Shown here: positions 3,721 through 58,803 of the stretch, one piece after another
Layout of the letters: each line of letters opens with the position of its first letter
Position numbering within the stretch: the first letter of the stretch is position 1
Assembly: GCA_032173965.1 (NCBI GenBank)
Contig: CM063283.1
Location: forward strand, 37,694,243-37,758,242
Origin: Sitta carolinensis
Lineage: Eukaryota > Chordata > Aves > Passeriformes > Sittidae
Direction of reading: 5' to 3'
Length of the DNA stretch: 64,000 bases
Notes under the pieces: generated by a model
What the model was told of the DNA's origin: nothing
The model's database searches: none
What the model saw: only the letters and a program-made list of their open reading frames with translations
Position numbers and translations under genes: made by a program

Positions 3721-5099
3721 GTTATGTATTGCCAGACAAGTTAGTTCTTCCTTTGAACCCCTTAAAATCAAAATATGTTCTACCCAAATTCTTCTCAGCA
3801 TTTGTCAAATGCCACTGCCTTGTTTTCCCATGAGAGTATAAACATGGAACAGGTGAAATTTTTATTACAGTGCTATTGAAAAAGACTAAGAAATTAATAA
3901 CCAGATAACAAAACACATAGTCATTGTGAGAGAAATTAGTGACAACATGTCAAATACAAGGAAATAGGCCAGATCAACATCCTACACATAGAGTTTAGCA
4001 TGTCTTACAGAATAAATGCTTAATGACAATGAATGCCCAATATTTATTTTCATTTCTGCATATTTAGTATATTTCTGTATGCAGCAAAGACATACCAGGG
4101 TTTAAAATAAGTTCTGGCTCCCCAGATAGCTCCAACACCCAGTAGTCTGCTAATCTAATGTTTTAATTTATGTTAAAGCATGTTTTTTACATTCGAAAAA
4201 CTCCTTTTCCTTAATAGTCTTTAAGCTACTACTGTGATCCATGTTACACCTCTAGTTACATAGGAAGTGTGAAAAAAGTCGTAATTTTCATGATCTTGCT
4301 TCATCCCTTTTATTAAGACTATTGATTTAGGGAAGGAAGTTAGGAAATGCTTCCCATCATAATATCTATTCAAATATTTCTCTTATATACAAAATGTTTA
4401 TATGGTCTTCTCAAAAGTCTGGAGTGTAGAGTGGACTAAATGTAATTTCTGTATCTAAACAAATGTCCGTAACATTTCTAAGGGCAATTCATCCCATTAT
4501 AAAACAGCCATTTACAAGTAGAGAAATGAATAATGCCTTGACATTCCCAGTTCTGCCCAAAGATTATAAAGGCAGTCTGGATCTGCCAGGATGTATATCC
4601 CAGTGATATTACTAAACTAAATGTTGTGTATAGGCTGTATGTTTAGAATTGCCTTGCCCTGACCTCTAAGGTTGCTTATTCAGTTTTCCAGTGCCCACAG
4701 TAAGAAATCTACCCAACAATATTTGATGTTTTGAACATGAAAAACTAAGATCTGACTAAACAAAACCTGTTATTCTTTAAATTCCTGTTCATATATAGTC
4801 TTTAAAAACTGCTTTGGAAAATATTCCCCTAAATGTTCACACACTGTCATCTCAGCCATTGTCTAGGTATCATGGACATGAATCTCTAGCTAGCAGAATC
4901 TCCTGAAAAACTTTAGTAATGCACACCTGCAGCGGTGTCATCTTTGCATGAACAGAATGGAACTGATAGGGTTATCCCAATTCATGAGTATGAGTTTTGT
5001 ATAAAGATATCCAGATGGACTGGAATATGTACATGTGTAGGAGGGCAAGTGCAGGGTGTGCCTGAGAGATAGAGAGAAGCTGCAGATGGTGTTTGACTG

Positions 5100-9356: not shown

Positions 9357-9486
9357 TGGAGACAGATTCAAATGTCAAATCTCAACATGCTGCAATTTTT
9401 TCTTTTTGACACGAAGTCTGGTGGAGACAGATTCAAATGTCCAATCTCAACATGCCACAATTTTTTCTTTTTGACAGGAAGTCTGC
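9357..9486. repeat. 65-bp tandem duplication
   Basis: Two adjacent direct copies, 9357-9421 and 9422-9486, each starting 'tggagacagattcaaatgtc' and ending in the 'gacacgaagtctg' or 'gacaggaagtctg' block. They differ at only a few positions (for example 'catgctgc' against 'catgccac'), so this is a fairly recent local duplication in otherwise unique DNA. Confidence 0.9.
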
Positions 9487-40104: not shown

Positions 40105-40590
40105 TTGCCAAGGGTCCACTTCTCCAGCTTGTTCAGATCCCTGAGGGTGGCATCTTGTTTTTCAGGTGTGTCATCCACAGTTTGTTGCCATCTGCAAATT
40201 TCTAAGCTTCTGTCTGATTGCAGCAAACCAATTCCTTATCCATTTAAGAGTCCACACATTGAATCCATCAATCTCCAATAAAAGAGAAGAATGGTGTGGG
40301 GGACCATGTCAAAGGCTTTATAGCAGTCCAGATTAATGACATCTCTAATCCTTCCCTCGTCCACTGATGTAGTCACTCCTTCATAGAAGGCCATTGGGTT
40401 GGTCAGGGCACACTTGCAGGACTGGCCCCTGGAGAAGCCACGCTGGCTGACCCAAATCACCTCCCTGTTCCCCATGTGCCTTAGCAGAGCTTCTAGAAGG
40501 ATCTGTCTCATAATCTTCTGACAGAAGAGGACTTGACAGGTCAGTAGTACCCAGGTTCCTCCCTTTCACCCTTTTCAAAGATGGGTCAAG
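40105..40590 (-). mobile_element. CR1 LINE ORF2 reverse-transcriptase fragment
   Basis: The minus-strand frame 40236-40511 stays open for 91 codons and reads in order: an Ile-Leu-Leu-Glu-Ala-Leu block, Trp-Val-Ser-Gln-Arg-Gly-Phe (the usual Q-x-G-F step), Cys-Ala-Leu-Thr-Asn-Pro, Phe-Tyr-Glu-Gly-Val-Thr, Val-Asp-Glu-Gly-Arg, and Tyr-Lys-Ala-Phe-Asp-Met-Val-Pro-His. The last is the conserved 'K-A-F-D-x-V-x-H' box that carries the first catalytic Asp of the reverse transcriptase. The usual Leu-Asp-Phe-Ser before it reads Leu-Asp-Cys-Tyr. The plus-strand block at 40105-40235 corresponds to the region just downstream in the element, out of frame. Truncated and non-functional. It ends about 100 bp left of the start of the large duplication. 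Confidence 0.85.
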
Positions 40591-40734
40591 AAAAGTAAGA
40601 TATTCTCTTTTCTACCAGTACACTTATGTATTGAAGGTATTTATGCTAGATGTATGATGGAAACCTTGACTTCTGTCAGGAACAGTGCATTCAGCTTTCT
40701 TATTCTACTTTAGTTTTCCTCTTTCCATGATTTT

Positions 40735-40845
40735 TTTACTTGGCTCCACTGTTTCCCTTGTTTGTTTTTTTGGTTCAATTTTGTGTTTGTTGTTTTGGCG
40801 GGGTTTTTTTGTTGGATTGGATTGGGTTGGGGGTTTTGCATGATA
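40735..40845. repeat. T/G-rich low-complexity tract (copy 1)
   Basis: T and G runs ending in 'ttggattggattgggttggg'; repeated in copy 2 at 48802-48912. It starts about 40 bp inside the left edge of block A. Confidence 0.85.
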
Positions 40846-41339
40846 CATAGATTATTACTATGTTTCAAAGAACTTATAGTGTCAAAATGATGTTGTCGAT
40901 TAATTGTTTTTCTGTCTTTAAGAGCAAGGAACTCAGGGATCTAAAAGACAGGTGTGGTGAAACATATTCATGAAATATGTTAAATGAAATCCCACATCCT
41001 AAAATAGGTGTTAGGAATATGTACAATGATGGACAGAGCACTAATTTTCAAAATGGGTCCCAAAGCAGCTGGTATTCTGAATAATGTGCCCTAATGACAC
41101 AGTCTGCTTGGAGACACTGAGAGTCAAAAAATCTTTAGATTTTTTAGATGAGACATTTTTCCTGTTACATGATGAAATGCTGCTCTGTAGAAACCTAGAA
41201 TCTTTCTCCAAAAGCAGTGTCATGTTTTGGCTCTAAGTGGCCAGTTTTTGACACTGAGACAAGATTTAACTAATAAAAAGAGTTGATAGGCCTTTGCAAA
41301 TACACATTTAAGGACAGGGAGGACTGGGAGTAGCTCTCT

Positions 41340-41960
41340 TGACTTCCAACTTTTGGGGAAGGCGGCGATGGGCCGGGTGTAGGCTGGCCCCTCTTGGCCC
41401 TCGTGGCCGAGCCTGGCCCAGTCCCTGATGGCCGAGCCGGGACATCCCGTTCCTGGAGGGGCGGTGAGCGGCTGCCGAGCCCTCACCGGGGGCCACAGGG
41501 CCCTGTCCCGGCCGGGCTGGGCCCCTTTGCCAGCAGAACCTGCCGAACTTTGGTTCCAGCAGAGCCACGGGGCCATGCTGTCTGGAGGCTGAATCGGCAC
41601 CAAGAGCAACTGTGCAACGAGGACCAGCACCTGCATCCAAACCAGCACCTGTATGGGCACCAAAGGAGCTGAGCATGGGGACAGCACCTGGATGGGCACC
41701 AAAGGAGCTGAGCATGGGGACAGCACCTGCATGGGCACCAAAGGAGCTGAGCATGGGGACAGCACCTGGATGGGCACCAAAGGAGCTGAGCATGGGCACC
41801 AGCACCAGTGGCCCCCATAGTCCGTGCTAAAGGTGACCCCGCAGCCAGGAGCAGCCCTGACCCTGCTCCACACTGAGAGCAGCCAGCACAGCTCATGTGG
41901 CGCTGGAGGAGAGCACGTGGCCAACAGAGAGAGGCAGAGCGAGCCATGTTCCTGATACAG
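41340..41960. other. GC- and CpG-rich island (copy 1)
   Basis: An abrupt jump to high GC inside AT-rich DNA, with many CG dinucleotides in the left half ('ggccgagccgggacatcccg', 'cccggccgggctgggc') and a minisatellite in the right half. Long frames on both strands cross it (minus 41220-42140, 306 codons; minus 41308-41805, 165 codons). The same DNA in copy 2 has one extra G that breaks and rejoins the long frames differently (277 and 242 codons), which argues that none is a maintained protein. It may be the U3 part of the LTR-like sequence that follows. Confidence 0.8.
41653..41808. repeat. 39-bp minisatellite, four units (copy 1)
   Basis: Units start at 41653, 41692, 41731 and 41770, each beginning 'atgggcaccaaaggagctga' and, in the first three, ending in 'gggacagcacctg' plus one or two bases. 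Units differ mainly at one base before the start (g/c). Because 39 is a multiple of three, all frames stay open through it, which explains the long repetitive open frames (Cys-Ser-Ala-Pro-Leu-Val-Pro type on the minus strand). Confidence 0.95.
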
Positions 41961-42804
41961 GACTTGGACTAAATTAACTGTCCAGCGTTGCAGGACTCCA
42001 TACTTAATGAACACTAATTCTCTCTTGAACCAAGAAGGAAAACAGGTGAACCTTTGTAGGAACAACAACATGAGACTGAGGTCAGTAAGAAAAGAATTAA
42101 ATTTTCTATCAAAGAGATTGGAAAGTGATGTCCTAAGCATGGGTTATGAAATTATTTTGTGAAGCTATGGTAAAGATACACTTGATATATTAAACTTTGT
42201 TTTTTTCTTCTGTAAATTCATGAAATGTTTGGGGGATATAGTGTTCTAACTATAATTATGAGCAGAGGCACCAGTATTAGAAGTTTAGTAAGAAAACCTT
42301 GCCCTGAGGATAAAAGAGAAAGATTTCTGTTCTCAGAGATGAATGAAAGGAACTTTTATTTTATGCTAGAATTGCTCATCCTTAAAATACTACCCCAATG
42401 AGTTGACATGAACATAAAACACAGTTGTGAGAAGAACTGTGAAAGGTGAGAAAAACTTCACAAATGCAAATCTCGGGCAGATGTTACTTGTGAAAATTGA
42501 AGTCACAAGAACTTCTTTCCTTGTAAAGAGTTCTCCATAGCATTAGCAAAGAATATTTTTCTCTCTAAATGAACTAAAGAAATAATATTTTAGAGGTGAA
42601 GAACTGACTGAGATTTCTCAGTATTGTTTTCTGTACTTTGTTGGTTGGAAAGAAAGAAAGAAAGTGTAGTGAGGGAAGAAAAAGATATTCTAATTTCCTG
42701 TTACTTTTTTTGTTCTGTTAATAAAGTTTTTCTTTGTATCCTTTCAAGTTTAGGCCTGCTTTGATATTTTCTCCAAATACTATCTCACTAATAGACCCAC
42801 AACA
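41961..42804 (+). mobile_element. LTR-like 3' end, possible old retroviral LTR (copy 1)
   Basis: The right part has the order of an R-U5 end: AATAAA at 42720-42725, then 'cctttcaagtttaggcctgc', ending in 'acccacaaca' (CA at 42803-42804). Six bases later 'tggtgagccagccaggaa' at 42810-42827 resembles a primer-binding-site position. Similar text closes songbird LTRs that I remember. The left limit is uncertain; the GC island may be its U3. No gag, pol or env follows, so if this is an LTR it is solo or the internal part is lost. Repeated in copy 2. Confidence 0.35.
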
Positions 42805-43130
42805 TTTTTTGGTGAGCCAGCCAGGAAGAGTTAAAAATTGGCAAACCTAGATCACTATACATAATTGGTATTTCTGCCTAGTTTCTAGCTGAAACTATGA
42901 CAAGCAGAAAACTCTGTTTAGTTTATACACCCTCGCTATATAATAAATAGTCTTCTTGCCAAAACCATGAAATAAAGATTTTTCAGTAACCTGTCTAAGA
43001 AGTATTAATAACCTATTTCCTTTTTCCTTGTAAGATTTCCAAAGTTCAAGCTGTGTTAGAGAACATTTTATCTCTTAGAGAGCATTTTATCTCTTACCTT
43101 TTAAAAATCCTAGTAGTTTCTTATCTTCTG

Positions 43131-43331
<201 letters not shown>

Positions 43332-43944
43332 GATTGTATGATAAATTTGCAGTATGAAAGTTCTGCTGGCTGACTGATGTTTTTATTTAGGTTTGCATTT
43401 ATGTGAATTTGACACAAATCTAGTGACTACTCAGTATATAAACTTGTACACAGACATTGATATTTTCCAGGCTTTCACAATGCATGTCCATGCAACTTTT
43501 GCTACTTTGAAAAAATATGAGGAAGATACAGCCAGTAAAGAAGCTGTTTTCTTTCTTAGAAGATGTAGTCAAAACTGGCTCATTACTGCAGGGCTTCCAA
43601 GATATCACTATCTCCACATATGTTTGTGGGTACAATTCAAGGTGTTAATATTTAATTGTTCCTCAGTATACTGAATACTTAGGGTTTAGCTCCTTGGAAG
43701 CCTCCTTCTTTTCCTTTGTATTAATACAACAATAGGGATCACTTGATGTAGTATAATTCTAGGTCCCTGTGTACGCACATTCTGGATGTAAACTAGACTG
43801 TTTCCAACAAAGATTGTTTGACTGCACATATATTTTACTGATGATCCTTCCAACCAGCCATTTTCATCAGTGTTTAGCCTGAAGCAGACTCTGGTCTTTA
43901 TCTAATGTTGTAACATTTTATACTATGGGAGCAATTTGTAATAC

Positions 43945-43971
<27 letters not shown>
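43945..43971. repeat. Poly-T, 27 bp (copy 1)
   Basis: Uninterrupted T27; 28 T in copy 2 (52035-52062). Confidence 0.95.
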
Positions 43972-43975
<4 letters not shown>

Positions 43976-45245
43976 GTGTGTGCACACACAGGTTGCACAA
44001 AAGGACAACCAGAGCTGGGCAAAAGAACAGAAAAGGTGTAAAGTACTTCCATGCATGCACATTGCCTGAAGGTTCTTTTCTTTTCCTTGTTGTAATTCTT
44101 CCCTTTCACTCTAATCACCTTCTGTCACTGAAGTGGCAGGCAAATTCTTCTCTCATAGTAAAGCCTTTCTCCTTTTCCTTCCTAGTGTTTCTCTCCACTC
44201 TAGCATCATCATTTCAGACCCAGTAAATTCCTTTCAGTTAGTATTGTCACCTATATCACTGCAGAACCTTGGAGCTGACTCTGCCAACAGCCTTTTGACT
44301 ACAATAATTTTACATAAACTTTGTCATTCTTTCTAGAATAATTGCTGATCATAGCTGGTTGTGCAGGCATTATGCACATGTGTGCATATATTTAATTATA
44401 CATATCAGTCTAGTATTGCTTAGATCCCCAAAGAAAAATACTTGAACACAGACAGCATACTACCATCTGGGAGAACAAGATAGAACATATGACAGCCGTT
44501 TCCCACTGGAAGACAGTCTAAAAGCCTAAAGGGTTGATAATACTTCAATTAAAATATTTTCCTAATATAAACAAAAAGACAGTCACCCAAAGTCAAAATT
44601 TAACAGATATTTATCCCTTTACCCTGCAGAATTCTAGACCTACAAATCTCAGTTTGCTACATCCACGAAAAGGCCTTCAGGTGTTGTGGAGAAGGCTCAG
44701 AGGAGGAATGGTGCGTCTCAGAGTGCTTTCTAAGTTATTTATTTGCATGAACTATAAGATTGGGAATTTGGTGTGCCTGATTTCATACAGACAGATAAAA
44801 GCTACTTGCAATAGTCCAGCTAGAGCTCAAATTTGGGACTATATCACAGCATTAGTCATCCTCAAGAAATTTCTTGACTCATTCAGTAACTACACATGGT
44901 CAAATGATTTAGCTTCCAAGTTAGTTTGTGCAATGTTGAACACTCTTATTTAAATAAATAATAATCAATTGTCTGTGCTATGTGGACATGAATTCTCTTA
45001 CTTCATTTTCAGGTCAAGTAACTAGCTGCTCATGGAAGAAAATTTGGGTGAAGATTTAATAATAATTCACTGTAAAGGTTGCTTTCTAAGGATTGTATGA
45101 AAAATATTGCTTCATATTGATTATCTTCACCATAAGTTTTTCTACATTATCTAAAATGATTTGTTTCTTTAGATCCTCTCTGTCATTACAAGATGTGTAA
45201 AATATATAGTTTGAAATATCTTGGTGGTAGGATATGATACTAGCT

Positions 45246-45301
45246 TCACAGCTTCTTCAGATACTCCAGGTGTTTCTTCAGAGTCTCACAGACATTTTCA
45301 T
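45246..45301 (-). other. Candidate terminal coding exon, unidentified (copy 1)
   Basis: On the minus strand a pyrimidine tract ending 'gattttttttcag' is followed by 18 codons and TGA. The peptide is Glu-Asn-Val-Cys-Glu-Thr-Leu-Lys-Lys-His-Leu-Glu-Tyr-Leu-Lys-Lys-Leu, an amphipathic helix pattern. All four Leu codons are CTG, and three of the four Lys codons in the LKKH/LKKL pairs are AAG, unlike the AT-rich surroundings. This is what a short last exon would look like. I could not find a matching upstream exon in a compatible phase, nor name a family, so it may be chance. Identical in copy 2 at 53338-53393. Confidence 0.2.
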
Positions 45302-47113
45302 CTGAAAAAAATCAAGATACAGTGAAAATAATGAATATGTTTTAGGTCTACAAATAAGCCACAAGATGCCTCCCTGTTCAAGTGATCTGAAATTCCAGAG
45401 CCTCACTCTGACATTCTCCATCATGTTCATGGATAAACACTGCTACCAAAAGTATTTTCTAATACAAACTGAGGAAGATTGTGGCCTCTGTACTTTTCTG
45501 AGAACCACAGAATCTTGGGTTTTTCCTATACAATGTAAGGGTGCAACTAAGAAACTGAAACATCACCAGTAATTTTGTCTATTTAGGGATTAAGATTGCA
45601 GTCTGAAAAGTCCCATTTCTTTCTGTTGAGTGTGTAAAGACACAACTGGAATCTGAAGACTCAGCTAAGATTTCCATCTTTGTTCACATTTCACAGTAAG
45701 AGTTAGCCACTAGGAATAGGATTCAGACAAATCAGCAGGCTGAGCAAGGTATTGCGTAAGAGTAGGGTAAAAACTAATATTTAATGTCAGCCATGAGCTC
45801 TCAATGGAAAAGGCACTTAACTGTGTCAATCATTTCTCACAAAATATACCTACAAGATCCAAATTAAAATCTTTTTACTTTTGGGAAAGGGATTTAAAGA
45901 CACATCTCCTAAACTGTTCTATTATTTTAAGATATTGTCCTCATAATCTTATCAAACTCACAGCCATTCCCCTCTATAAATCATAGTAATTGGGTCAAAG
46001 ATACAGGAGAATGGTTCAACATGGGTTTGTGCTTCAATGCATACTTATTTATTTTACAAAATAACTGAGACCTGAATAGGACCAAATGTACAGAACACAC
46101 CTAGGATGTCTTTGCATCACTGGCATGTTCTGATAATTGTCGATCCCTATAGATAAACACATGGAGGCAAAGGAAATATATATTTTAATAGCAAAAATAT
46201 AAAACCCAAACATTAAATATAAATTTGATAATTCACCTGTAGTCAGCAGAAATATAGGCAACTAGTGATTAAGGCATACACAGAATTAAGCAATATTGAG
46301 AGAAGGAGTTGTGAGTTCTGTCTGGTGCCTTGTATTAAACTCGTAAGAAATGTACTACTGGGGAACAAATGCTAGAATTACTCGGGACCTAACATGTGCA
46401 AGAACTGTATCTCACCATAACGTTATGAAATGTAATAAACTTTGCAGTATACAAGCAATATTAGAAGAAAACTCATATATTAGATGCAATAAAATCTGTT
46501 CACTGCACATTAACAACTGTCCTAAAATTATGTTTTTTTAGTTGCTTTCATTATTTCAGTTTATTTTAATTTTTATGTGATGAAACAACCACTCTTCATG
46601 TTCTGAAATATTCTGAGATGTTATGGCAATGTGATCTTGCGGAAGTCTTTTTCAACCATTTAAAAAAAAAATAATTTTGCAAAAGAAATATTGTAGAAAG
46701 CAACTATTTAAAATTACAGTTATTTCATATACCTGTTTGACTAGGAAATAAAGAATAGTATTGTTGATTTTGGCATTTTACTAAAATGGATAACCAGCAT
46801 ATCCTAACGTATGGATTTGTGCATATATGTGCATATATGGATATTTTAAATAGGTTTTAGTAAATGAAACTTAATACAACTTTAAAAATTCCTAGCAAAA
46901 CACATGTTTTGCAAAACATGCCCTAGCTGGATTTCTAATCTATGAAAGCTGCTTAAAGTTAGGCATATGTATTGGACATATAGACTGACTCTGCTATCAA
47001 AACCAAATTTCGTAAGTGGCAACAGAAGTGATGTTCTTTAAATTATAAAATTTTCTCTCATTTTCTTATAGGTGTTTAATTTTTTCATGCTTCAGGAATG
47101 TAATTCTAATATA

Positions 47114-47118
<5 letters not shown>

Positions 47119-47159
<41 letters not shown>

Positions 47160-47164
47160 TGTGT
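47119..47164. repeat. (GT)n microsatellite (copy 1)
   Basis: About 23 TG units with one GG interruption near 47152. Copy 2 (55211-55256) has the same length and the same interruption. Confidence 0.95.
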
Positions 47165-48139
47165 ATAAAATCTGCTAAAACTTATAACAGCTTATATTAT
47201 CCAATTTTTCTAAGTACTGAGTATAAATTTTCATTGAAGGATTTGTTTGTATTGTCTGTCCTGCCTTATATCTGTCTTCTGAAAGATGAAATTAGGTTGA
47301 TTATTAATGCCAAGCTGATATCTATACTGGAAAACATCAATTCAGCATTTACAGCATAGAGATTGAAAGGTTGGTCCATATAATATCTAAAAGTAATAGT
47401 GAGCAAGTGAGCTGATCATTTATTCACCATGGAATTTGGGTTCTGGATTTAACTACTGAAAAGTCATACAGTGCTAATAACTAGTAGCAATCAGTTTAGT
47501 TGCAATTCAGTCTGGGTTTATGTCTACTCAGAATTGCACAGAGATGCCTGTACCTGAAATACCCACCAAGAAAGAAAGGCAAAAACTAATTGCTAGATCC
47601 TCGAAAGGGCTAGAAAGATGAGAATTAGTGTAGACAAAAGGAAACAGATTCCTATTAATGTCTGTGACCTATTTCATGACCGTTTTTTATCCTGACTCTT
47701 GCTAATGATATCTTTGTAAGGAAAGTAGTATTATGTTAAACTTTGTAGTTACAATGTAGTGCAAATCACTGTCCCTGTGGAAAGATAGTTTAGAATGTTT
47801 ATGTGAGTGGGTTTTGACTACTCAGAAACTTCTATCTTACATCAGCTCAGAAAGCATAAATTTTCTGTTGAGAAGATAACAAAATTTGTTAGGAATTTTG
47901 TAGAAAGTCACAAGCAGTAAGATCTATAGAAGTATAGAAACCAGCATGCTGTCAGGTAAGGTTATGGCTGGGATGACATCATAAGAACTTTTGGAAGATA
48001 TGGAAGAGCACTATTGTGGAATTTCCACTATTTGGACTGTGAATACTACCGTAACACTTGAAAACTAATGAGTACAGGTGGAAGAGTAGCTCCCATAATT
48101 AAGTCAATGGAAAATATTTCAATTATCTTCATCATCAAA

Positions 48140-48253
48140 TTTTAAAATAGTTTGGCTTGGAAGGACTTAAAAGATCACCTAGTTCAAACTCTCCTGCCCT
48201 GAGCAAGCACACATTCAAATATACCAGTTTGCTTAAACCCCATGCAAACATGA
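48140..48253 (-). mobile_element. CR1 LINE 3' end fragment (copy 1)
   Basis: Reverse complement of a CR1 terminus: 'tagtttggcttggaaggac', 'aaaagatcacctagttcaaa', 'ccctgagcaagcacacat', then 'accagtttgcttaaacccca'. A short truncated copy near the right end of block A; repeated at 56234-56347. Confidence 0.8.
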
Positions 48254-48357
48254 ATATAATAAACTAAACCCGGTCCTCTAAATGCTTTTGTTGTGGTGTG
48301 CAGCGCAGGAATATGGATACTGGTATTGGAATATGGAATACTGGAATATGGTAATTC

Positions 48358-48761
48358 AGCAATCTAAATGACTGGATTCCAGATCCAGAGAACATGGCCC
48401 AACATTGTTTAATTTACTCATATAGATCCATGTGTGCTAAAATGAACTCTAATGGATTTTACTATGTACGTGAATGCTTCGTTGAGCTGAACTAGGTATT
48501 TTATCTTTAAGGTTGGCAAATTCATGGTATGAAAATGTCAAAACAAGTACCAGTTAAATTCTGTCCTTCTGCATCTAAAGGCTCTAAAAACACTGCTTAT
48601 CAACAGAGATAAATAGCAGATCACCAGCAAACAGTTAGGTAGATGACTTCTGGAAACATGATCACAGACATCCCCTAGTACAATATCAACGACGTGTTGT
48701 TCAGTGGAAACAAAGGGAAACAGTTTGTCACTTGTCAGATTTTTTCATAGTAGTGCAACAG
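48358..48761. repeat. Block B, first copy
   Basis: About 400 bp from 'agcaatctaaatgactgg' to 'tagtgcaacag', identical by eye to 58400-58803 (offset 10042). Here it directly follows block A and runs straight into copy 2 of A. In the second location it is separated from A' by 1.95 kb. No gene or transposon seen in it. Confidence 0.95.
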
Positions 48762-48801
48762 CTTTCTTATTCTACTTTAGTTTTCCTCTTTCCATGATTT
48801 T

Positions 48802-48912
48802 TTTACTTGGCTCCACTGTTTCCCTTGTTTGTTTTTTTGGTTCAATTTTGTGTTTGTTGTTTTGGCGGGGTTTTTTTGTTGGATTGGATTGGGTTGGGGG
48901 TTTTGCATGATA
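48802..48912. repeat. T/G-rich low-complexity tract (copy 2)
   Basis: Counterpart of 40735-40845. Confidence 0.85.
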
Positions 48913-49406
48913 CATAGATTATTACTATGTTTCAAAGAACTTATAGTGTCAAAATGATGTTGTCGATTAATTGTTTTTCTGTCTTTAAGAGCAAGGAACT
49001 CAGGGATCTAAAAGACAGGTGTGGTGAAACATATTCATGAAATATGTTAAATGAAATCCCACATCCTAAAATAGGTGTTAGGAATATGTACAATGATGGA
49101 CAGAGCACTAATTTTCAAAATGGGTCCCAAAGCAGCTGGTATTCTGAATAATGTGCCCTAATGACACAGTCTGCTTGGAGACACTGAGAGTCAAAAAATC
49201 TTTAGATTTTTTAGATGAGACATTTTTCCTGTTACATGATGAAATGCTGCTCTGTAGAAACCTAGAATCTTTCTCCAAAAGCAGTGTCATGTTTTGGCTC
49301 TAAGTGGCCAGTTTTTGACACTGAGACAAGATTTAACTAATAAAAAGAGTTGATAGGCCTTTGCAAATACACATTTAAGGACAGGGAGGACTGGGAGTAG
49401 CTCTCT

Positions 49407-50027
49407 TGACTTCCAACTTTTGGGGAAGGCGGCGATGGGCCGGGTGTAGGCTGGCCCCTCTTGGCCCTCGTGGCCGAGCCTGGCCCAGTCCCTGATGGCC
49501 GAGCCGGGACATCCCGTTCCTGGAGGGGCGGTGAGCGGCTGCCGAGCCCTCACCGGGGGGCCACAGGGCCCTGTCCCGGCCGGGCTGGGCCCCTTTGCCA
49601 GCAGAACCTGCCGAACTTTGGTTCCAGCAGAGCCACGGGGCCATGCTGTCTGGAGGCTGAATCGGCACCAAGAGCAACTGTGCAACGAGGACCAGCACCT
49701 GCATCCAAACCAGCACCTGTATGGGCACCAAAGGAGCTGAGCATGGGGACAGCACCTGGATGGGCACCAAAGGAGCTGAGCATGGGGACAGCACCTGCAT
49801 GGGCACCAAAGGAGCTGAGCATGGGGACAGCACCTGGATGGGCACCAAAGGAGCTGAGCATGGGCACCAGCACCAGTGGCCCCCATAGTCCGTGCTAAAG
49901 GTGACCCCGCAGCCAGGAGCAGCCCTGACCCTGCTCCACACTGAGAGCAGCCAGCACAGCTCATGTGGCGCTGGAGGAGAGCACGTGGCCAACAGAGAGA
50001 GGCAGAGCGAGCCATGTTCCTGATACA
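49407..50027. other. GC- and CpG-rich island (copy 2)
   Basis: Counterpart of 41340-41960 with one extra G (G6 against G5) at about 49555-49560. The extra base shifts the frame between the left part and the minisatellite. Confidence 0.8.
49721..49876. repeat. 39-bp minisatellite, four units (copy 2)
   Basis: Units start at 49721, 49760, 49799 and 49838. The number of units and the order of unit variants are the same as in copy 1. Minisatellites normally change length quickly, so this supports a very short time since duplication. Confidence 0.95.
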
Positions 50028-50872
50028 GGACTTGGACTAAATTAACTGTCCAGCGTTGCAGGACTCCATACTTAATGAACACTAATTCTCTCTTGAACCA
50101 AGAAGGAAAACAGGTGAACCTTTGTAGGAACAACAACATGAGACTGAGGTCAGTAAGAAAAGAATTAAATTTTCTATCAAAGAGATTGGAAAGTGATGTC
50201 CTAAGCATGGGTTATGAAATTATTTTGTGAAGCTATGGTAAAGATACACTTGATATATTAAACTTTGTTTTTTTCTTCTGTAAATTCATGAAATGTTTGG
50301 GGGATATAGTGTTCTAACTATAATTATGAGCAGAGGCACCAGTATTAGAAGTTTAGTAAGAAAACCTTGCCCTGAGGATAAAAGAGAAAGATTTCTGTTC
50401 TCAGAGATGAATGAAAGGAACTTTTATTTTATGCTAGAATTGCTCATCCTTAAAATACTACCCCAATGAGTTGACATGAACATAAAACACAGTTGTGAGA
50501 AGAACTGTGAAAGGTGAGAAAAACTTCACAAATGCAAATCTCGGGCAGATGTTACTTGTGAAAATTGAAGTCACAAGAACTTCTTTCCTTGTAAAGAGTT
50601 CTCCATAGCATTAGCAAAGAATATTTTTCTCTCTAAATGAACTAAAGAAATAATATTTTAGAGGTGAAGAACTGACTGAGATTTCTCAGTATTGTTTTCT
50701 GTACTTTGTTGGTTGGAAAGAAAGAAAGAAAGTGTAGTGAGGGAAGAAAAAGATATTCTAATTTCCTGTTACTTTTTTTGTTCTGTTAATAAAGTTTTTC
50801 TTTGTATCCTTTCAAGTTTAGGCCTGCTTTGATATTTTCTCCAAATACTATCTCACTAATAGACCCACAACA
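50028..50872 (+). mobile_element. LTR-like 3' end (copy 2)
   Basis: Counterpart of 41961-42804; AATAAA at 50788-50793, primer-site-like 'tggtgagccagccaggaa' at 50878-50895. Same uncertainty. Confidence 0.35.
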
Positions 50873-51198
50873 TTTTTTGGTGAGCCAGCCAGGAAGAGTT
50901 AAAAATTGGCAAACCTAGATCACTATACATAATTGGTATTTCTGCCTAGTTTCTAGCTGAAACTATGACAAGCAGAAAACTCTGTTTAGTTTATACACCC
51001 TCGCTATATAATAAATAGTCTTCTTGCCAAAACCATGAAATAAAGATTTTTCAGTAACCTGTCTAAGAAGTATTAATAACCTATTTCCTTTTTCCTTGTA
51101 AGATTTCCAAAGTTCAAGCTGTGTTAGAGAACATTTTATCTCTTAGAGAGCATTTTATCTCTTACCTTTTAAAAATCCTAGTAGTTTCTTATCTTCTG

Positions 51199-51420
<222 letters not shown>

Positions 51421-52031
51421 AGATTGTATGATAAATTTGCAGTATGAAAGTTCTGCTGGCTGACTGATGTTTTTATTTAGGTTTGCATTTATGTGAATTT
51501 GACACAAATCTAGTGACTACTCAGTATATAAACTTGTACACAGACATTGATATTTTCCAGGCTTTCACAATGCATGTCCATGCAACTTTTGCTACTTTGA
51601 AAAAATATGAGGAAGATACAGCCAGTAAAGAAGCTGTTTTCTTTCTTAGAAGATGTAGTCAAAACTGGCTCATTACTGCAGGGCTTCCAAGATATCACTA
51701 TCTCCACATATGTTTGTGGGTACAATTCAAGGTGTTAATATTTAATTGTTCCTCAGTATACTGAATACTTAGGGTTTAGCTCCTTGGAAGCCTCCTTCTT
51801 TTCCTTTGTATTAATACAACAATAGGGATCACTTGATGTAGTATAATTCTAGGTCCCTGTGTACGCACATTCTGGATGTAAACTAGACTGTTTCCAACAA
51901 AGATTGTTTGACTGCACATATATTTTACTGATGATCCTTCCAACCAGCCATTTTCATCAGTGTTTAGCCTGAAGCAGACTCTGGTCTTTATCTAATGTTG
52001 TAACATTTTATACTATGGGAGCAATTTGTAA

Positions 52032-52034
<3 letters not shown>

Positions 52035-52062
<28 letters not shown>
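52035..52062. repeat. Poly-T, 28 bp (copy 2)
   Basis: One T longer than copy 1. Confidence 0.95.
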
Positions 52063-52066
<4 letters not shown>

Positions 52067-53337
52067 GTGTGTGCACACACAGGTTGCACAAAAGGACAAC
52101 CAGAGCTGGGCAAAAGAACAGAAAAGGTGTAAAGTACTTCCATGCATGCACATTGCCTGAAGGTTCTTTTCTTTTCCTTGTTGTAATTCTTCCCTTTCAC
52201 TCTAATCACCTTCTGTCACTGAAGTGGCAGGCAAATTCTTCTCTCATAGTAAAGCCTTTCTCCTTTTCCTTCCTAGTGTTTCTCTCCACTCTAGCATCAT
52301 CATTTCAGACCCAGTAAATTCCTTTCAGTTAGTATTGTCACCTATATCACTGCAGAACCTTGGAGCTGACTCTGCCAACAGCCTTTTGACTACAATAATT
52401 TTACATAAACTTTGTCATTCTTTCTAGAATAATTGCTGATCATAGCTGGTTGTGCAGGCATTATGCACATGTGTGCATATATTTAATTATACATATCAGT
52501 CTAGTATTGCTTAGATCCCCAAAGAAAAATACTTGAACACAGACAGCATACTACCATCTGGGAGAACAAGATAGAACATATGACAGCCGTTTCCCACTGG
52601 AAGACAGTCTAAAAGCCTAAAGGGTTGATAATACTTCAATTAAAATATTTTCCTAATATAAACAAAAAGACAGTCACCCAAAGTCAAAATTTAACAGATA
52701 TTTATCCCTTTACCCTGCAGAATTCTAGACCTACAAATCTCAGTTTGCTACATCCACGAAAAGGCCTTCAGGTGTTGTGGAGAAGGCTCAGAGGAGGAAT
52801 GGTGCGTCTCAGAGTGCTTTCTAAGTTATTTATTTGCATGAACTATAAGATTGGGAATTTGGTGTGCCTGATTTCATACAGACAGATAAAAGCTACTTGC
52901 AATAGTCCAGCTAGAGCTCAAATTTGGGACTATATCACAGCATTAGTCATCCTCAAGAAATTTCTTGACTCATTCAGTAACTACACATGGTCAAATGATT
53001 TAGCTTCCAAGTTAGTTTGTGCAATGTTGAACACTCTTATTTAAATAAATAATAATCAATTGTCTGTGCTATGTGGACATGAATTCTCTTACTTCATTTT
53101 CAGGTCAAGTAACTAGCTGCTCATGGAAGAAAATTTGGGTGAAGATTTAATAATAATTCACTGTAAAGGTTGCTTTCTAAGGATTGTATGAAAAATATTG
53201 CTTCATATTTGATTATCTTCACCATAAGTTTTTCTACATTATCTAAAATGATTTGTTTCTTTAGATCCTCTCTGTCATTACAAGATGTGTAAAATATATA
53301 GTTTGAAATATCTTGGTGGTAGGATATGATACTAGCT

Positions 53338-53393
53338 TCACAGCTTCTTCAGATACTCCAGGTGTTTCTTCAGAGTCTCACAGACATTTTCAT
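53338..53393 (-). other. Candidate terminal coding exon, unidentified (copy 2)
   Basis: Identical to 45246-45301, including the acceptor-like tract. If it is a real last exon, its gene would run on the minus strand from higher coordinates, and the duplication would have copied its 3' end. Confidence 0.2.
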
Positions 53394-55205
53394 CTGAAAA
53401 AAATCAAGATACAGTGAAAATAATGAATATGTTTTAGGTCTACAAATAAGCCACAAGATGCCTCCCTGTTCAAGTGATCTGAAATTCCAGAGCCTCACTC
53501 TGACATTCTCCATCATGTTCATGGATAAACACTGCTACCAAAAGTATTTTCTAATACAAACTGAGGAAGATTGTGGCCTCTGTACTTTTCTGAGAACCAC
53601 AGAATCTTGGGTTTTTCCTATACAATGTAAGGGTGCAACTAAGAAACTGAAACATCACCAGTAATTTTGTCTATTTAGGGATTAAGATTGCAGTCTGAAA
53701 AGTCCCATTTCTTTCTGTTGAGTGTGTAAAGACACAACTGGAATCTGAAGACTCAGCTAAGATTTCCATCTTTGTTCACATTTCACAGTAAGAGTTAGCC
53801 ACTAGGAATAGGATTCAGACAAATCAGCAGGCTGAGCAAGGTATTGCGTAAGAGTAGGGTAAAAACTAATATTTAATGTCAGCCATGAGCTCTCAATGGA
53901 AAAGGCACTTAACTGTGTCAATCATTTCTCACAAAATATACCTACAAGATCCAAATTAAAATCTTTTTACTTTTGGGAAAGGGATTTAAAGACACATCTC
54001 CTAAACTGTTCTATTATTTTAAGATATTGTCCTCATAATCTTATCAAACTCACAGCCATTCCCCTCTATAAATCATAGTAATTGGGTCAAAGATACAGGA
54101 GAATGGTTCAACATGGGTTTGTGCTTCAATGCATACTTATTTATTTTACAAAATAACTGAGACCTGAATAGGACCAAATGTACAGAACACACCTAGGATG
54201 TCTTTGCATCACTGGCATGTTCTGATAATTGTCGATCCCTATAGATAAACACATGGAGGCAAAGGAAATATATATTTTAATAGCAAAAATATAAAACCCA
54301 AACATTAAATATAAATTTGATAATTCACCTGTAGTCAGCAGAAATATAGGCAACTAGTGATTAAGGCATACACAGAATTAAGCAATATTGAGAGAAGGAG
54401 TTGTGAGTTCTGTCTGGTGCCTTGTATTAAACTCGTAAGAAATGTACTACTGGGGAACAAATGCTAGAATTACTCGGGACCTAACATGTGCAAGAACTGT
54501 ATCTCACCATAACGTTATGAAATGTAATAAACTTTGCAGTATACAAGCAATATTAGAAGAAAACTCATATATTAGATGCAATAAAATCTGTTCACTGCAC
54601 ATTAACAACTGTCCTAAAATTATGTTTTTTTAGTTGCTTTCATTATTTCAGTTTATTTTAATTTTTATGTGATGAAACAACCACTCTTCATGTTCTGAAA
54701 TATTCTGAGATGTTATGGCAATGTGATCTTGCGGAAGTCTTTTTCAACCATTTAAAAAAAAAATAATTTTGCAAAAGAAATATTGTAGAAAGCAACTATT
54801 TAAAATTACAGTTATTTCATATACCTGTTTGACTAGGAAATAAAGAATAGTATTGTTGATTTTGGCATTTTACTAAAATGGATAACCAGCATATCCTAAC
54901 GTATGGATTTGTGCATATATGTGCATATATGGATATTTTAAATAGGTTTTAGTAAATGAAACTTAATACAACTTTAAAAATTCCTAGCAAAACACATGTT
55001 TTGCAAAACATGCCCTAGCTGGATTTCTAATCTATGAAAGCTGCTTAAAGTTAGGCATATGTATTGGACATATAGACTGACTCTGCTATCAAAACCAAAT
55101 TTCGTAAGTGGCAACAGAAGTGATGTTCTTTAAATTATAAAATTTTCTCTCATTTTCTTATAGGTGTTTAATTTTTTCATGCTTCAGGAATGTAATTCTA
55201 ATATA

Positions 55206-55210
<5 letters not shown>

Positions 55211-55251
<41 letters not shown>

Positions 55252-55256
55252 TGTGT
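55211..55256. repeat. (GT)n microsatellite (copy 2)
   Basis: Same length and same GG interruption as copy 1. Confidence 0.95.
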
Positions 55257-56233
55257 ATAAAATCTGCTAAAACTTATAACAGCTTATATTATCCAATTTT
55301 TCTAAGTACTGAGTATATAAATTTTCATTGAAGGATTTGTTTGTATTGTCTGTCCTGCCTTATATCTGTCTTCTGAAAGATGAAATTAGGTTGATTATTA
55401 ATGCCAAGCTGATATCTATACTGGAAAACATCAATTCAGCATTTACAGCATAGAGATTGAAAGGTTGGTCCATATAATATCTAAAAGTAATAGTGAGCAA
55501 GTGAGCTGATCATTTATTCACCATGGAATTTGGGTTCTGGATTTAACTACTGAAAAGTCATACAGTGCTAATAACTAGTAGCAATCAGTTTAGTTGCAAT
55601 TCAGTCTGGGTTTATGTCTACTCAGAATTGCACAGAGATGCCTGTACCTGAAATACCCACCAAGAAAGAAAGGCAAAAACTAATTGCTAGATCCTCGAAA
55701 GGGCTAGAAAGATGAGAATTAGTGTAGACAAAAGGAAACAGATTCCTATTAATGTCTGTGACCTATTTCATGACCGTTTTTTATCCTGACTCTTGCTAAT
55801 GATATCTTTGTAAGGAAAGTAGTATTATGTTAAACTTTGTAGTTACAATGTAGTGCAAATCACTGTCCCTGTGGAAAGATAGTTTAGAATGTTTATGTGA
55901 GTGGGTTTTGACTACTCAGAAACTTCTATCTTACATCAGCTCAGAAAGCATAAATTTTCTGTTGAGAAGATAACAAAATTTGTTAGGAATTTTGTAGAAA
56001 GTCACAAGCAGTAAGATCTATAGAAGTATAGAAACCAGCATGCTGTCAGGTAAGGTTATGGCTGGGATGACATCATAAGAACTTTTGGAAGATATGGAAG
56101 AGCACTATTGTGGAATTTCCACTATTTGGACTGTGAATACTACCGTAACACTTGAAAACTAATGAGTACAGGTGGAAGAGTAGCTCCCATAATTAAGTCA
56201 ATGGAAAATATTTCAATTATCTTCATCATCAAA

Positions 56234-56347
56234 TTTTAAAATAGTTTGGCTTGGAAGGACTTAAAAGATCACCTAGTTCAAACTCTCCTGCCCTGAGCAA
56301 GCACACATTCAAATATACCAGTTTGCTTAAACCCCATGCAAACATGA
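56234..56347 (-). mobile_element. CR1 LINE 3' end fragment (copy 2)
   Basis: Counterpart of 48140-48253. Confidence 0.8.
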
Positions 56348-56451
56348 ATATAATAAACTAAACCCGGTCCTCTAAATGCTTTTGTTGTGGTGTGCAGCGC
56401 AGGAATATGGATACTGGTATTGGAATATGGAATACTGGAATATGGTAATTC

Positions 56452-58399
56452 CAACAAAACTGTTGTGAAATTGGACATAAACACCTGTAAAACTGGATTG
56501 AAAATGAAACATTTTTCTATATTAGTGCTATTTTGTCACAGTTTGATTATTAAGAATGTAATCCACATGAAAACAGAAATAATTCATGTTGTTTAAAAAA
56601 AGCTGAAATAGTAAGCATTCCATTACCACAATCAATATTATGAAATAAACAGATTAAAAATCACAAAGCCAGCCTACCATCAAAACCACAGGAAATCAAA
56701 TAAAATCAATTACCTTAAAATCTTGATTTATGCTTTCTTGCTGACTCTTTGTTAGATCTTTTGCCTGAATATACATGAATACAAGAAACTAACTGCTGGT
56801 AAAACCAGTGATATTCATGGATGCAAAAAAATTTTTAGTCGACATGATTAGCCTGCTATATATTTAAGTCCCTGAAAACCAAAACTGACTGTAGTGGGTT
56901 GACTCTGGCTGAGTGCTAGGCTCCACTTGCCCTCCTCAATTGGACAAGAAAAATATGATGAAAGGCTCGTGGACAGGGAGTGATTGTTCATCAATTACTA
57001 TCATGGGCAAAACAGACTCACCTTGAGGAAATTAATTTATTAGCCATCAGATCAGAACAAGTTAATGAGAAATAAGCCCAAATATTGAAACCATCTTCCC
57101 TATACTCATCCCTTCTTCCTGGGCTTAAATTCCTTACTGTTTTCACTATCTCATCCAAAATGGAGCAGGGGGATGGGGTTGTACTCAGTTCATCATATTT
57201 TTTCTCTGCCACTCCTTCCTCCTCATTCTGTTCCACCCATCCAGCATGGGATCTCACCCACACAAGACTTCTCTACAAACTTCTTCAATGTGAGTTCTTC
57301 ATGAGCTGTTCCATTGTAGGTACTATCCAAAGACTGGAGACCTTCAGTAAAAAAATGCTTCAGTGTGGGTCCCCCACACAGGATCACAAGTCCTGCCCAC
57401 AATGTGTTCTTGTGTAGGCTACTGTCTCCATGGGGTCACAGGTCTGACAGTTGTTTTCCTAGTGTAGCCTTCCCAAAGCATAACAGCCTTCTTTTTCTGG
57501 TGTCCACCTTCCCCATCACGGGGTTCCAAATTGACTGAGAGAAAATCTCTGCTCTCTCCTCCATGGGCTGCAGAGGTACAGCTGTCTCACCATGGTCTGC
57601 ACCAAGGGCTTCAGGGGAATCTCAGCTCTGACACTTGGAGCACCTCTGCCCCACCTCCTTCACTGACCTTGGAGTCTATAGAATAGTTTTCTCACGTTTT
57701 CACTTCTCTCTTTGGCTGACGTTCTGTAGGAGGTTTTCCCCCCTTCTCACATCTGTTTTCTCAGAGACACTACCACCATCATGGATGGCCTTGACCTTGG
57801 CCAGTAGTGGATGTCTCTTGGAGCTGGATAGCAATAACTCTGTTGGACATGGGGGAAACTTCTGGCATCTTCCCACAAAAATCACCACAGTAACACCCCT
57901 GCTACCAAAACTTTGCCACACAACCTAAATATATTATAACACTCTACTACTACACATAATACAACAAAGTAAAATTAAGGGTGACTTCACCCTACAAAAT
58001 ACCTATTTTAGAACTACTCACAGTTACTGCCTGACTTTCAGCTCATCAGGCATTACCTGTTACTGTGAAAGATGACCACTCCAATGGTTAAGGTTTTAGC
58101 ACTTTATTTTGCTATTTTATTTTACCATTTAATTTGCTCAATTACATTCAGTAATTCTGTTGCCTTGCCTTCCATGTTCCCACCATCGGACTATACTTGA
58201 GTACAGTACCCAAAGTTTCATCGTTGTAGCCTAGGCAAAATGGACATTGCACATCAGGGGAACTAGACAAAAAAGTTGCCTAATTCACAAGGAACAAGGA
58301 AATTCTTTGTAGAATAAGAGTTCCGTGCTACATTCAGAGATAAACCATATGGGACAAAAGCACTAGGTGAAGACATTCCAAACACTGTTTCAACAATTC
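56452..58399. other. Segment X, present only beside copy 2
   Basis: 1948 bp between A' and B' with no equivalent between A and B. It is bounded by the 5-bp direct repeat 'aattc' (56447-56451 and 58395-58399), and copy 1 has a single 'aattc' at the join (48353-48357). About 440 bp of AT-rich DNA, a minus-strand LTR (56890-57930), then about 460 bp of AT-rich DNA. The ends of X are not TG...CA and do not form inverted repeats, so X as a whole does not look like one mobile element. A microhomology deletion from the first copy fits better than an insertion. Confidence 0.85.
56890..57930 (-). mobile_element. Endogenous-retrovirus LTR, about 1 kb, passerine type
   Basis: On the plus strand it begins 'tgtagtgggttgactctggc' at 56890, which on the minus strand is the CA end. 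It runs through 'aaaggctcgtgg', the block 'gggcaaaacagactcacctt' and 'gaaattaatttattagcc'; the last gives a minus-strand AATAAA at 57036-57041. Next is a run of diverged units around 57240-57620 built on 'ggatctcac', 'gggtcccccac' and 'ggggtcacag', each near a 'ctgc' or 'tcca' step. Then come 'cacctccttcactgacctt', 'acatgggggaaacttctgg' and 'cccctgctaccaaaac'. This order matches a long LTR very common in songbirds (remembered, not aligned). No internal retroviral genes and no clear target-site duplication; the far (5') end on the minus strand is uncertain and could lie beyond 57930. Related to the older remnant at 11340-11745. Confidence 0.75.
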
Positions 58400-58803
58400 A
58401 GCAATCTAAATGACTGGATTCCAGATCCAGAGAACATGGCCCAACATTGTTTAATTTACTCATATAGATCCATGTGTGCTAAAATGAACTCTAATGGATT
58501 TTACTATGTACGTGAATGCTTCGTTGAGCTGAACTAGGTATTTTATCTTTAAGGTTGGCAAATTCATGGTATGAAAATGTCAAAACAAGTACCAGTTAAA
58601 TTCTGTCCTTCTGCATCTAAAGGCTCTAAAAACACTGCTTATCAACAGAGATAAATAGCAGATCACCAGCAAACAGTTAGGTAGATGACTTCTGGAAACA
58701 TGATCACAGACATCCCCTAGTACAATATCAACGACGTGTTGTTCAGTGGAAACAAAGGGAAACAGTTTGTCACTTGTCAGATTTTTTCATAGTAGTGCAA
58801 CAG
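58395..58803. repeat. Block B, second copy
   Basis: Identical by eye to 48353-48761. On the right it continues into unique sequence ('gcagagcatgtcacc'), so 58803 is the right edge of the duplicated unit. Confidence 0.95.

Follow-up and report, generated by a model that had tools for sequence, protein, structure and literature searches.

Structure of the duplicated locus

The window, which is the whole stretch of 64,000 nucleotides of Sitta carolinensis DNA that was analysed, contains two direct repeats of unequal length. Self-alignment delimited copy 1, consisting of blocks A and B, at 8,067 bp and copy 2, consisting of blocks A', X, and B', at 10,042 bp. An earlier sequence-only reading had described a duplication of about 10 kb in which A and B each occur twice in direct orientation. 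Self-alignment confirmed the arrangement and refined the size to the two unit lengths given above. The reported offsets between the copies of A (8067, 8068, 8090, 8091, 8092, and 8094) were exact, and the offset of B is 10042. No N bases were found in the window. The elements of the locus are listed below.

40692..48357, forward strand: block A of copy 1, 7,666 bp, from self-alignment and string comparison
43131..43331, forward strand: GAAA array in A, 201 bp
48353..48357, forward strand: AATTC at the X-less junction of copy 1, 5 bp microhomology
48353..48761, forward strand: block B of copy 1, 409 bp, between two novel junctions
48759..48761, forward strand: CAG at the B/A' junction, 3 bp perfect microhomology
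48759..56451, forward strand: block A' of copy 2, 7,693 bp
51199..51421, forward strand: GAAA array in A', 223 bp, in which odd-length A runs are commoner
56452..58394, forward strand: X, in copy 2 only, 1,943 bp, with an old repeat in its middle
58395..58803, forward strand: block B' of copy 2, 409 bp

Chance cannot be the source of such a duplication. The copies represent a single locus in two structural forms, one carrying and one lacking a 1.94 kb segment that is flanked by AATTC, and the ancestral order of the locus is presumed to be L-A-X-B-R. The presence of X would shape either explanation of the duplication. In the case of an artefact, the two arms of a deletion bubble would have been placed in series, and a real duplication would call for one complex event or for two events.

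Sequence identity between the copies

The two copies were compared as plain strings with no aligner. All seven segments between the indels were letter-for-letter equal, covering 7,869 bp outside the GAAA array. The alignment and substitution count that had been proposed as a check on the duplication thus returned zero substitutions over that length. There are no haplotype-specific SNPs between the copies in these 7,869 bp, and the differences are confined to X and to the lengths of runs and arrays. Four indels lie outside the array: G5/6 (41488/49555), T27/28 (43945/52035), T2/3 (45117/53208), and TA2/3 (47222/55314). Copy 2 is the longer side in all five length differences (sign test, 0.06) and carries X in addition. 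The 39 bp minisatellite and the interrupted GT tract had been reported as unchanged, and both were indeed of equal length in the two copies and located within letter-identical segments.

The earlier statement that the copies show no point differences holds outside the GAAA array. Inside the array, several one-base steps also differ, substitutions and indels are not separable, and the aligners disagree. MAFFT placed several mismatches there, while a mismatch-averse aligner placed none. In the whole A alignment, with the array and a ragged left edge included, BLAST gave 1 mismatch and 17 gap openings.

According to the passages on variant calls and mutation rates in a pedigree study of the zebra finch, the calls comprised 101 million SNPs and 17 million indels, and the mutation rate is 5.0e-9 per site per generation, or 2.0e-9 per year (PMC12047795). 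At a SNP:indel ratio of 101:17, the probability of three short-run indels without a SNP is about 0.003, and that of four is 0.0004. Because these probabilities are low, the run-length indels look like consensus noise rather than age, and the use of run-length differences as a clock was rejected. With zebra finch rates, the absence of substitutions in 7,854 columns places the age below about 38,000 generations (95,000 years) as a 95% bound, provided that gene conversion is absent and that finch rates are applicable.

Reported heterozygosity is 0.34% in a hummingbird and 0.95% in the zebra finch. Over the length compared, 74.6 haplotype SNPs are expected at 0.95%, 26.7 at 0.34%, 3.9 at 0.05%, and 1.6 at 0.02%. 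The sequence-only reading had argued that heterozygous bird haplotypes would usually show some substitutions, which is right at an ordinary level of 0.34%. It had also considered the haplotype explanation weakened by this, and so it is, with room left for haplotypes of low diversity such as 0.02%.

The segment present in copy 2 only

AATTC is found on both sides of X in copy 2 and is single in copy 1. The whole of X has one occurrence in the assembly, and its ends match nowhere else among the candidates scored (40 of 1,440). X consists of host DNA, and its middle part (about 56921-57946, or approximately X positions 470-1495 of 1,943) is taken up by an old interspersed repeat. This repeat is 64-80% identical to its other copies, and 59 matches, including X itself, were found with 40 of 1,440 candidates scored. 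It may resemble an avian LTR.

Since the ends of X are unique and the repeat lies only in the middle, a deletion of X from copy 1 is favoured over its insertion into copy 2. Judged from its sequence, X seems to be ancestral DNA of the host that copy 1 has lost. The perfect 5 bp direct repeat on either side of X could be the target-site duplication of a mobile element inserted into copy 2, but the recurrent part covers only positions from about 470 to 1495, and the element boundaries do not coincide with the ends of X. In addition, the inverted match between the ends of X is unremarkable, with a score equalled by 30 of 300 control pairs. An insertion is therefore considered very improbable.

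Degenerate GGAATATGG-type repeats are present at 56402-56451, immediately preceding the AATTC on the left side of X. These 50 bp contain 7 GG, a number reached by 1.2% of windows. This G-rich pattern was spotted post hoc as a candidate stall site and was not used as evidence.

Copy number in the assembly

The assembly searched contains 1,031,649,674 bases in 252 contigs, and the window lies on a contig or chromosome of 116 Mb. The parts of A outside repeats (40692 to about 41217, and most of 43332-48357) were found in these two copies only, among the first-look candidates scored (40 of 1,652 and 40 of 143). B has only two occurrences in the assembly, and the first 1.6 kb of the right flank has one. 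Neither a separate haplotig nor a third copy was found in searches with A outside repeats, B, X, and the first 1.6 kb of the right flank. Redundant contigs had been suggested as one form of artefact; if this means an additional copy at another place, none was found for the non-repeat parts of the unit that were searched.

In the surrounding 264 kb, this duplication is the only direct repeat of at least 300 bp above 99% identity, and the next longest direct repeat is 639 bp at 96.4%. No second such duplication was seen in the 264 kb, so the assembly shows no general tendency to such duplications around this locus, a point against an artefact. Three runs of N occur in the same region, all of them outside the window, and these may be either gaps of the assembly or sequence that was withheld.

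The two novel junctions

The X-less junction and the B/A' junction are 0.4 kb apart. Among random position pairs, at least 5 bp is shared by 0.8%, to be compared with AATTC at the X-less junction, and at least 3 bp is shared by about 7%, to be compared with CAG at the B/A' junction. The motif AGTGCA stands at 48752, just before CAG, and also, in the left flank, at 40684. An imperfect match of the form AGTGCA(TT or A)CAG has a P of 0.009 in 20,000 random pairs, by a measure chosen after the sequence had been seen. The B/A' junction contains no N and no filler, and nothing is inserted. The 30-mer across it had 0 exact matches in viral_contigs, where a bird locus is not expected.

Under two independent events, a spacing of 0.4 kb has a P of about 0.05 if one end of the unit is considered and 0.10 if either end is. 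Because the junctions are so close together, a single cause, whether a bubble or a double switch, is favoured over two independent events.

Segmental duplication by non-allelic homologous recombination (NAHR) is a known class, which PMC4056370 names. Its direct tandem product is shared with this locus, but the homologous direct repeats that it has at the breakpoints are absent here, and NAHR was rejected. In local alignments of the duplication breakpoints, the direct scores of 22 and 20 were reached by 232 of 300 control pairs (601 bp) and 95 of 300 (201 bp), respectively. The inverted scores were reached by 54 of 300 and 6 of 300. Around X, the direct score was reached by 254 of 300 control pairs, and the inverted one by the 30 of 300 given above. 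Six comparisons were made in total and, therefore, the value of 6 of 300 was not relied on.

A possible false assembly duplication

The sequence-only reading had left two alternatives, an extremely recent event or an assembly artefact. This alternative stands and both sides of it are kept, with the structural versions created by X as an addition. We give a probability of about 0.5 to a false assembly duplication in which X-less and X-bearing alleles were laid in series, and the choice between this artefact and a real young duplication is nearly even. These weights are a judgement and not a computation.

If the duplication is false, the true locus would be L-A-X-B-R, once per haplotype, and one haplotype would have lost X in a deletion at AATTC. 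On the left flank, the arm without X would have been kept, ending 0.4 kb past the deletion, and the X-bearing arm, starting 7.7 kb before X, would have been kept on the right flank. Software would then have placed both arms end to end. We infer both the existence of the two alleles and the software-made join. For zero SNPs and a gapless join to arise as an artefact, the locus would have to be low in diversity and the deletion young, and the software would have to have abutted two contigs.

The passages on false duplications in Rhie et al. (2021, PMC8081667) describe cases with the 5' flank on one haplotype and the 3' flank on the other, called 'flanking contigs'. The same passages give contig-boundary duplications as about one read long and list differing consensus quality as a sign of homotype duplication. 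The layout L-[A B][A X B]-R corresponds to the 'flanking contigs' heterotype class as it is described there (PMC8081667). The unit lengths of 8.07 and 10.04 kb are compatible with the published statement of about one read. The unit also contains a structural difference, as a bubble requires. The length-only differences, three of them in short runs without a SNP (P about 0.003), look like consensus noise, and all five fall on one side (sign test, 0.06).

In the passages of Ko et al. (2022, PMC9516828) that deal with its extent, false duplication in the VGP assemblies amounts to 2.3% for the zebra finch and 0.5% for the hummingbird. False copies are described there as mostly separated by gaps and sometimes by sequence unsupported by reads, and a true allele-specific tandem duplication without those signs is named as well. 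Unlike most false copies, the copies here have no N or filler at the B/A' junction. CAG and AGTGCA..CAG are also better than usual random joining (7% and 0.9%, the second measure being post hoc). Zero substitutions would need a local diversity of about 0.05% or less, which is below 0.34% and 0.95%, and the noisier GAAA array sits in copy 2, not copy 1. As far as the two papers' accounts of vertebrate false duplications go (PMC8081667; PMC9516828), these share with our locus the joining of the flanks to serial versions, the location on the same scaffold, a size that may be read-like, and the length-type consensus differences. They differ from it in the gap between the copies and in haplotype SNPs, whereas here the only sizeable difference is X.

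If it is false, this is a gapless false duplication that filters based on gaps would pass, and the copy number of the locus is inflated.

A possible real, young duplication

A real, young tandem duplication has a chance just short of even. Points in its favour are that the junction is gapless and has microhomology and that substitutions are lacking. Within this reading, the best explanation is one replication-based event of the FoSTeS/MMBIR type with two template switches, which we propose tentatively. In such an event, synthesis would proceed through A, switch forward over X at AATTC, and copy 0.4 kb of B. It would then jump about 10 kb backwards, at CAG, to where A begins, after which A-X-B would be copied normally. 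The resulting duplication may be heterozygous in this bird.

Several features argue for a single event. The junction is gapless, and the two signs of template switching that were looked at were both found: the novel junctions are close together, only 0.4 kb apart (P about 0.05-0.10 for two independent events), and both have microhomology, its 5 bp at the first being reached by 0.8% of random pairs and its 3 bp at the second by about 7%. Zero substitutions are also as expected of a young event, of at most about 38,000 generations (95% bound). Short microhomology at both junctions, switches 0.4 kb apart, and otherwise identical copies are shared with template-switching complex copy-number variants (CNVs), for which PMC4056370 is an example. 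According to that paper, complex CNVs amount to 5% in humans and to 12% in flies (3 of 26 regions), and at 41% of fly CNV breakpoints the microhomology is at least 2 bp. A complex event belongs to a minority class. Moreover, the rearranged molecule is predicted from the assembly only, the difference in X is at least as well explained by a heterozygous bubble, and each microhomology is short and, on its own, compatible with end joining or chance.

A real duplication might also have formed in two steps, which we regard as unlikely. A-X-B would first be duplicated in tandem by end joining at CAG, and X would then be deleted from copy 1 at AATTC. In another form, included in the same low estimate, the duplication would arise between X-less and X-bearing homologues. 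Each step would be an ordinary mutation with short microhomology, and X, being unique DNA of the host that contains an old repeat, would have been lost from copy 1 by deletion. However, two events would have to fall within the time of zero substitutions over 7,869 bp, and the deletion would have to lie within 0.4 kb of the unit end by chance (P 0.05-0.10).

Returning to the single replication-based event, the locus would tentatively be a complex tandem duplication no older than about 38,000 generations, in which 1.94 kb was skipped and a back-jump of 10 kb followed. A real duplication would be a very young complex copy-number variant with both junctions recording its formation. If the one-event reading is true, the template-switch scars are unblurred by substitutions and provide a clean germline record of the mechanism. 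Whether false or real, the duplication is a known kind of thing, and nothing pointing to a new kind of system was found in the literature on false duplications and CNV mechanisms.

Genes and repeats

The set of open reading frames (ORFs) consisted of 203 stop-to-stop frames of at least 58 aa, with low-complexity ORFs and those starting in A' removed first. The 150 longest (at least 64 aa) were scanned against Pfam, a scan that short exons would escape. Nineteen families passed an E of 0.05 in these 150 ORFs. The best match, RVT_1 at 0.00076, was below the curated cut-off, and the remaining matches, at 0.0023 or worse, were taken as chance for 150 queries. Rfam gave 0 matches at the gathering score. 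A gene was rejected as the reason for the duplication, and no gene consequence is claimed, since no gene was recognised in the unit among the scanned ORFs. The duplicated stretch is apparently non-coding. The RVT_1 match lies outside it:

40239-40565, reverse strand: weak RVT_1 match, ending about 130 bp left of the left breakpoint

Three homologues were found, one of which is a hypothetical or reverse transcriptase protein of the crane Grus japonensis with 69% identity over 66% of the query, a result consistent with avian DNA. The match is presumably to a CR1-like element.

An interspersed repeat, which includes the 39 bp minisatellite, occupies part of A (about 41218-42905) and has its second copy in A'. 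Six other copies align at 69-87% identity (pieces of at least 100 bp, outside the minisatellite). The repeat carries a GC-rich stretch, and its minisatellite has 4.2 copies of the 39 bp unit, which is also present in other genomic copies of the repeat in varying number. Near the right end of A, another interspersed repeat of about 100-120 bp extends from 48228-48247 onward (query 4800-4916) and shows 73-81% identity to 38 further genomic places that were scored. Elsewhere in the window, at 9357-9485, a 65 bp unit is present in two tandem copies that are 93% alike.
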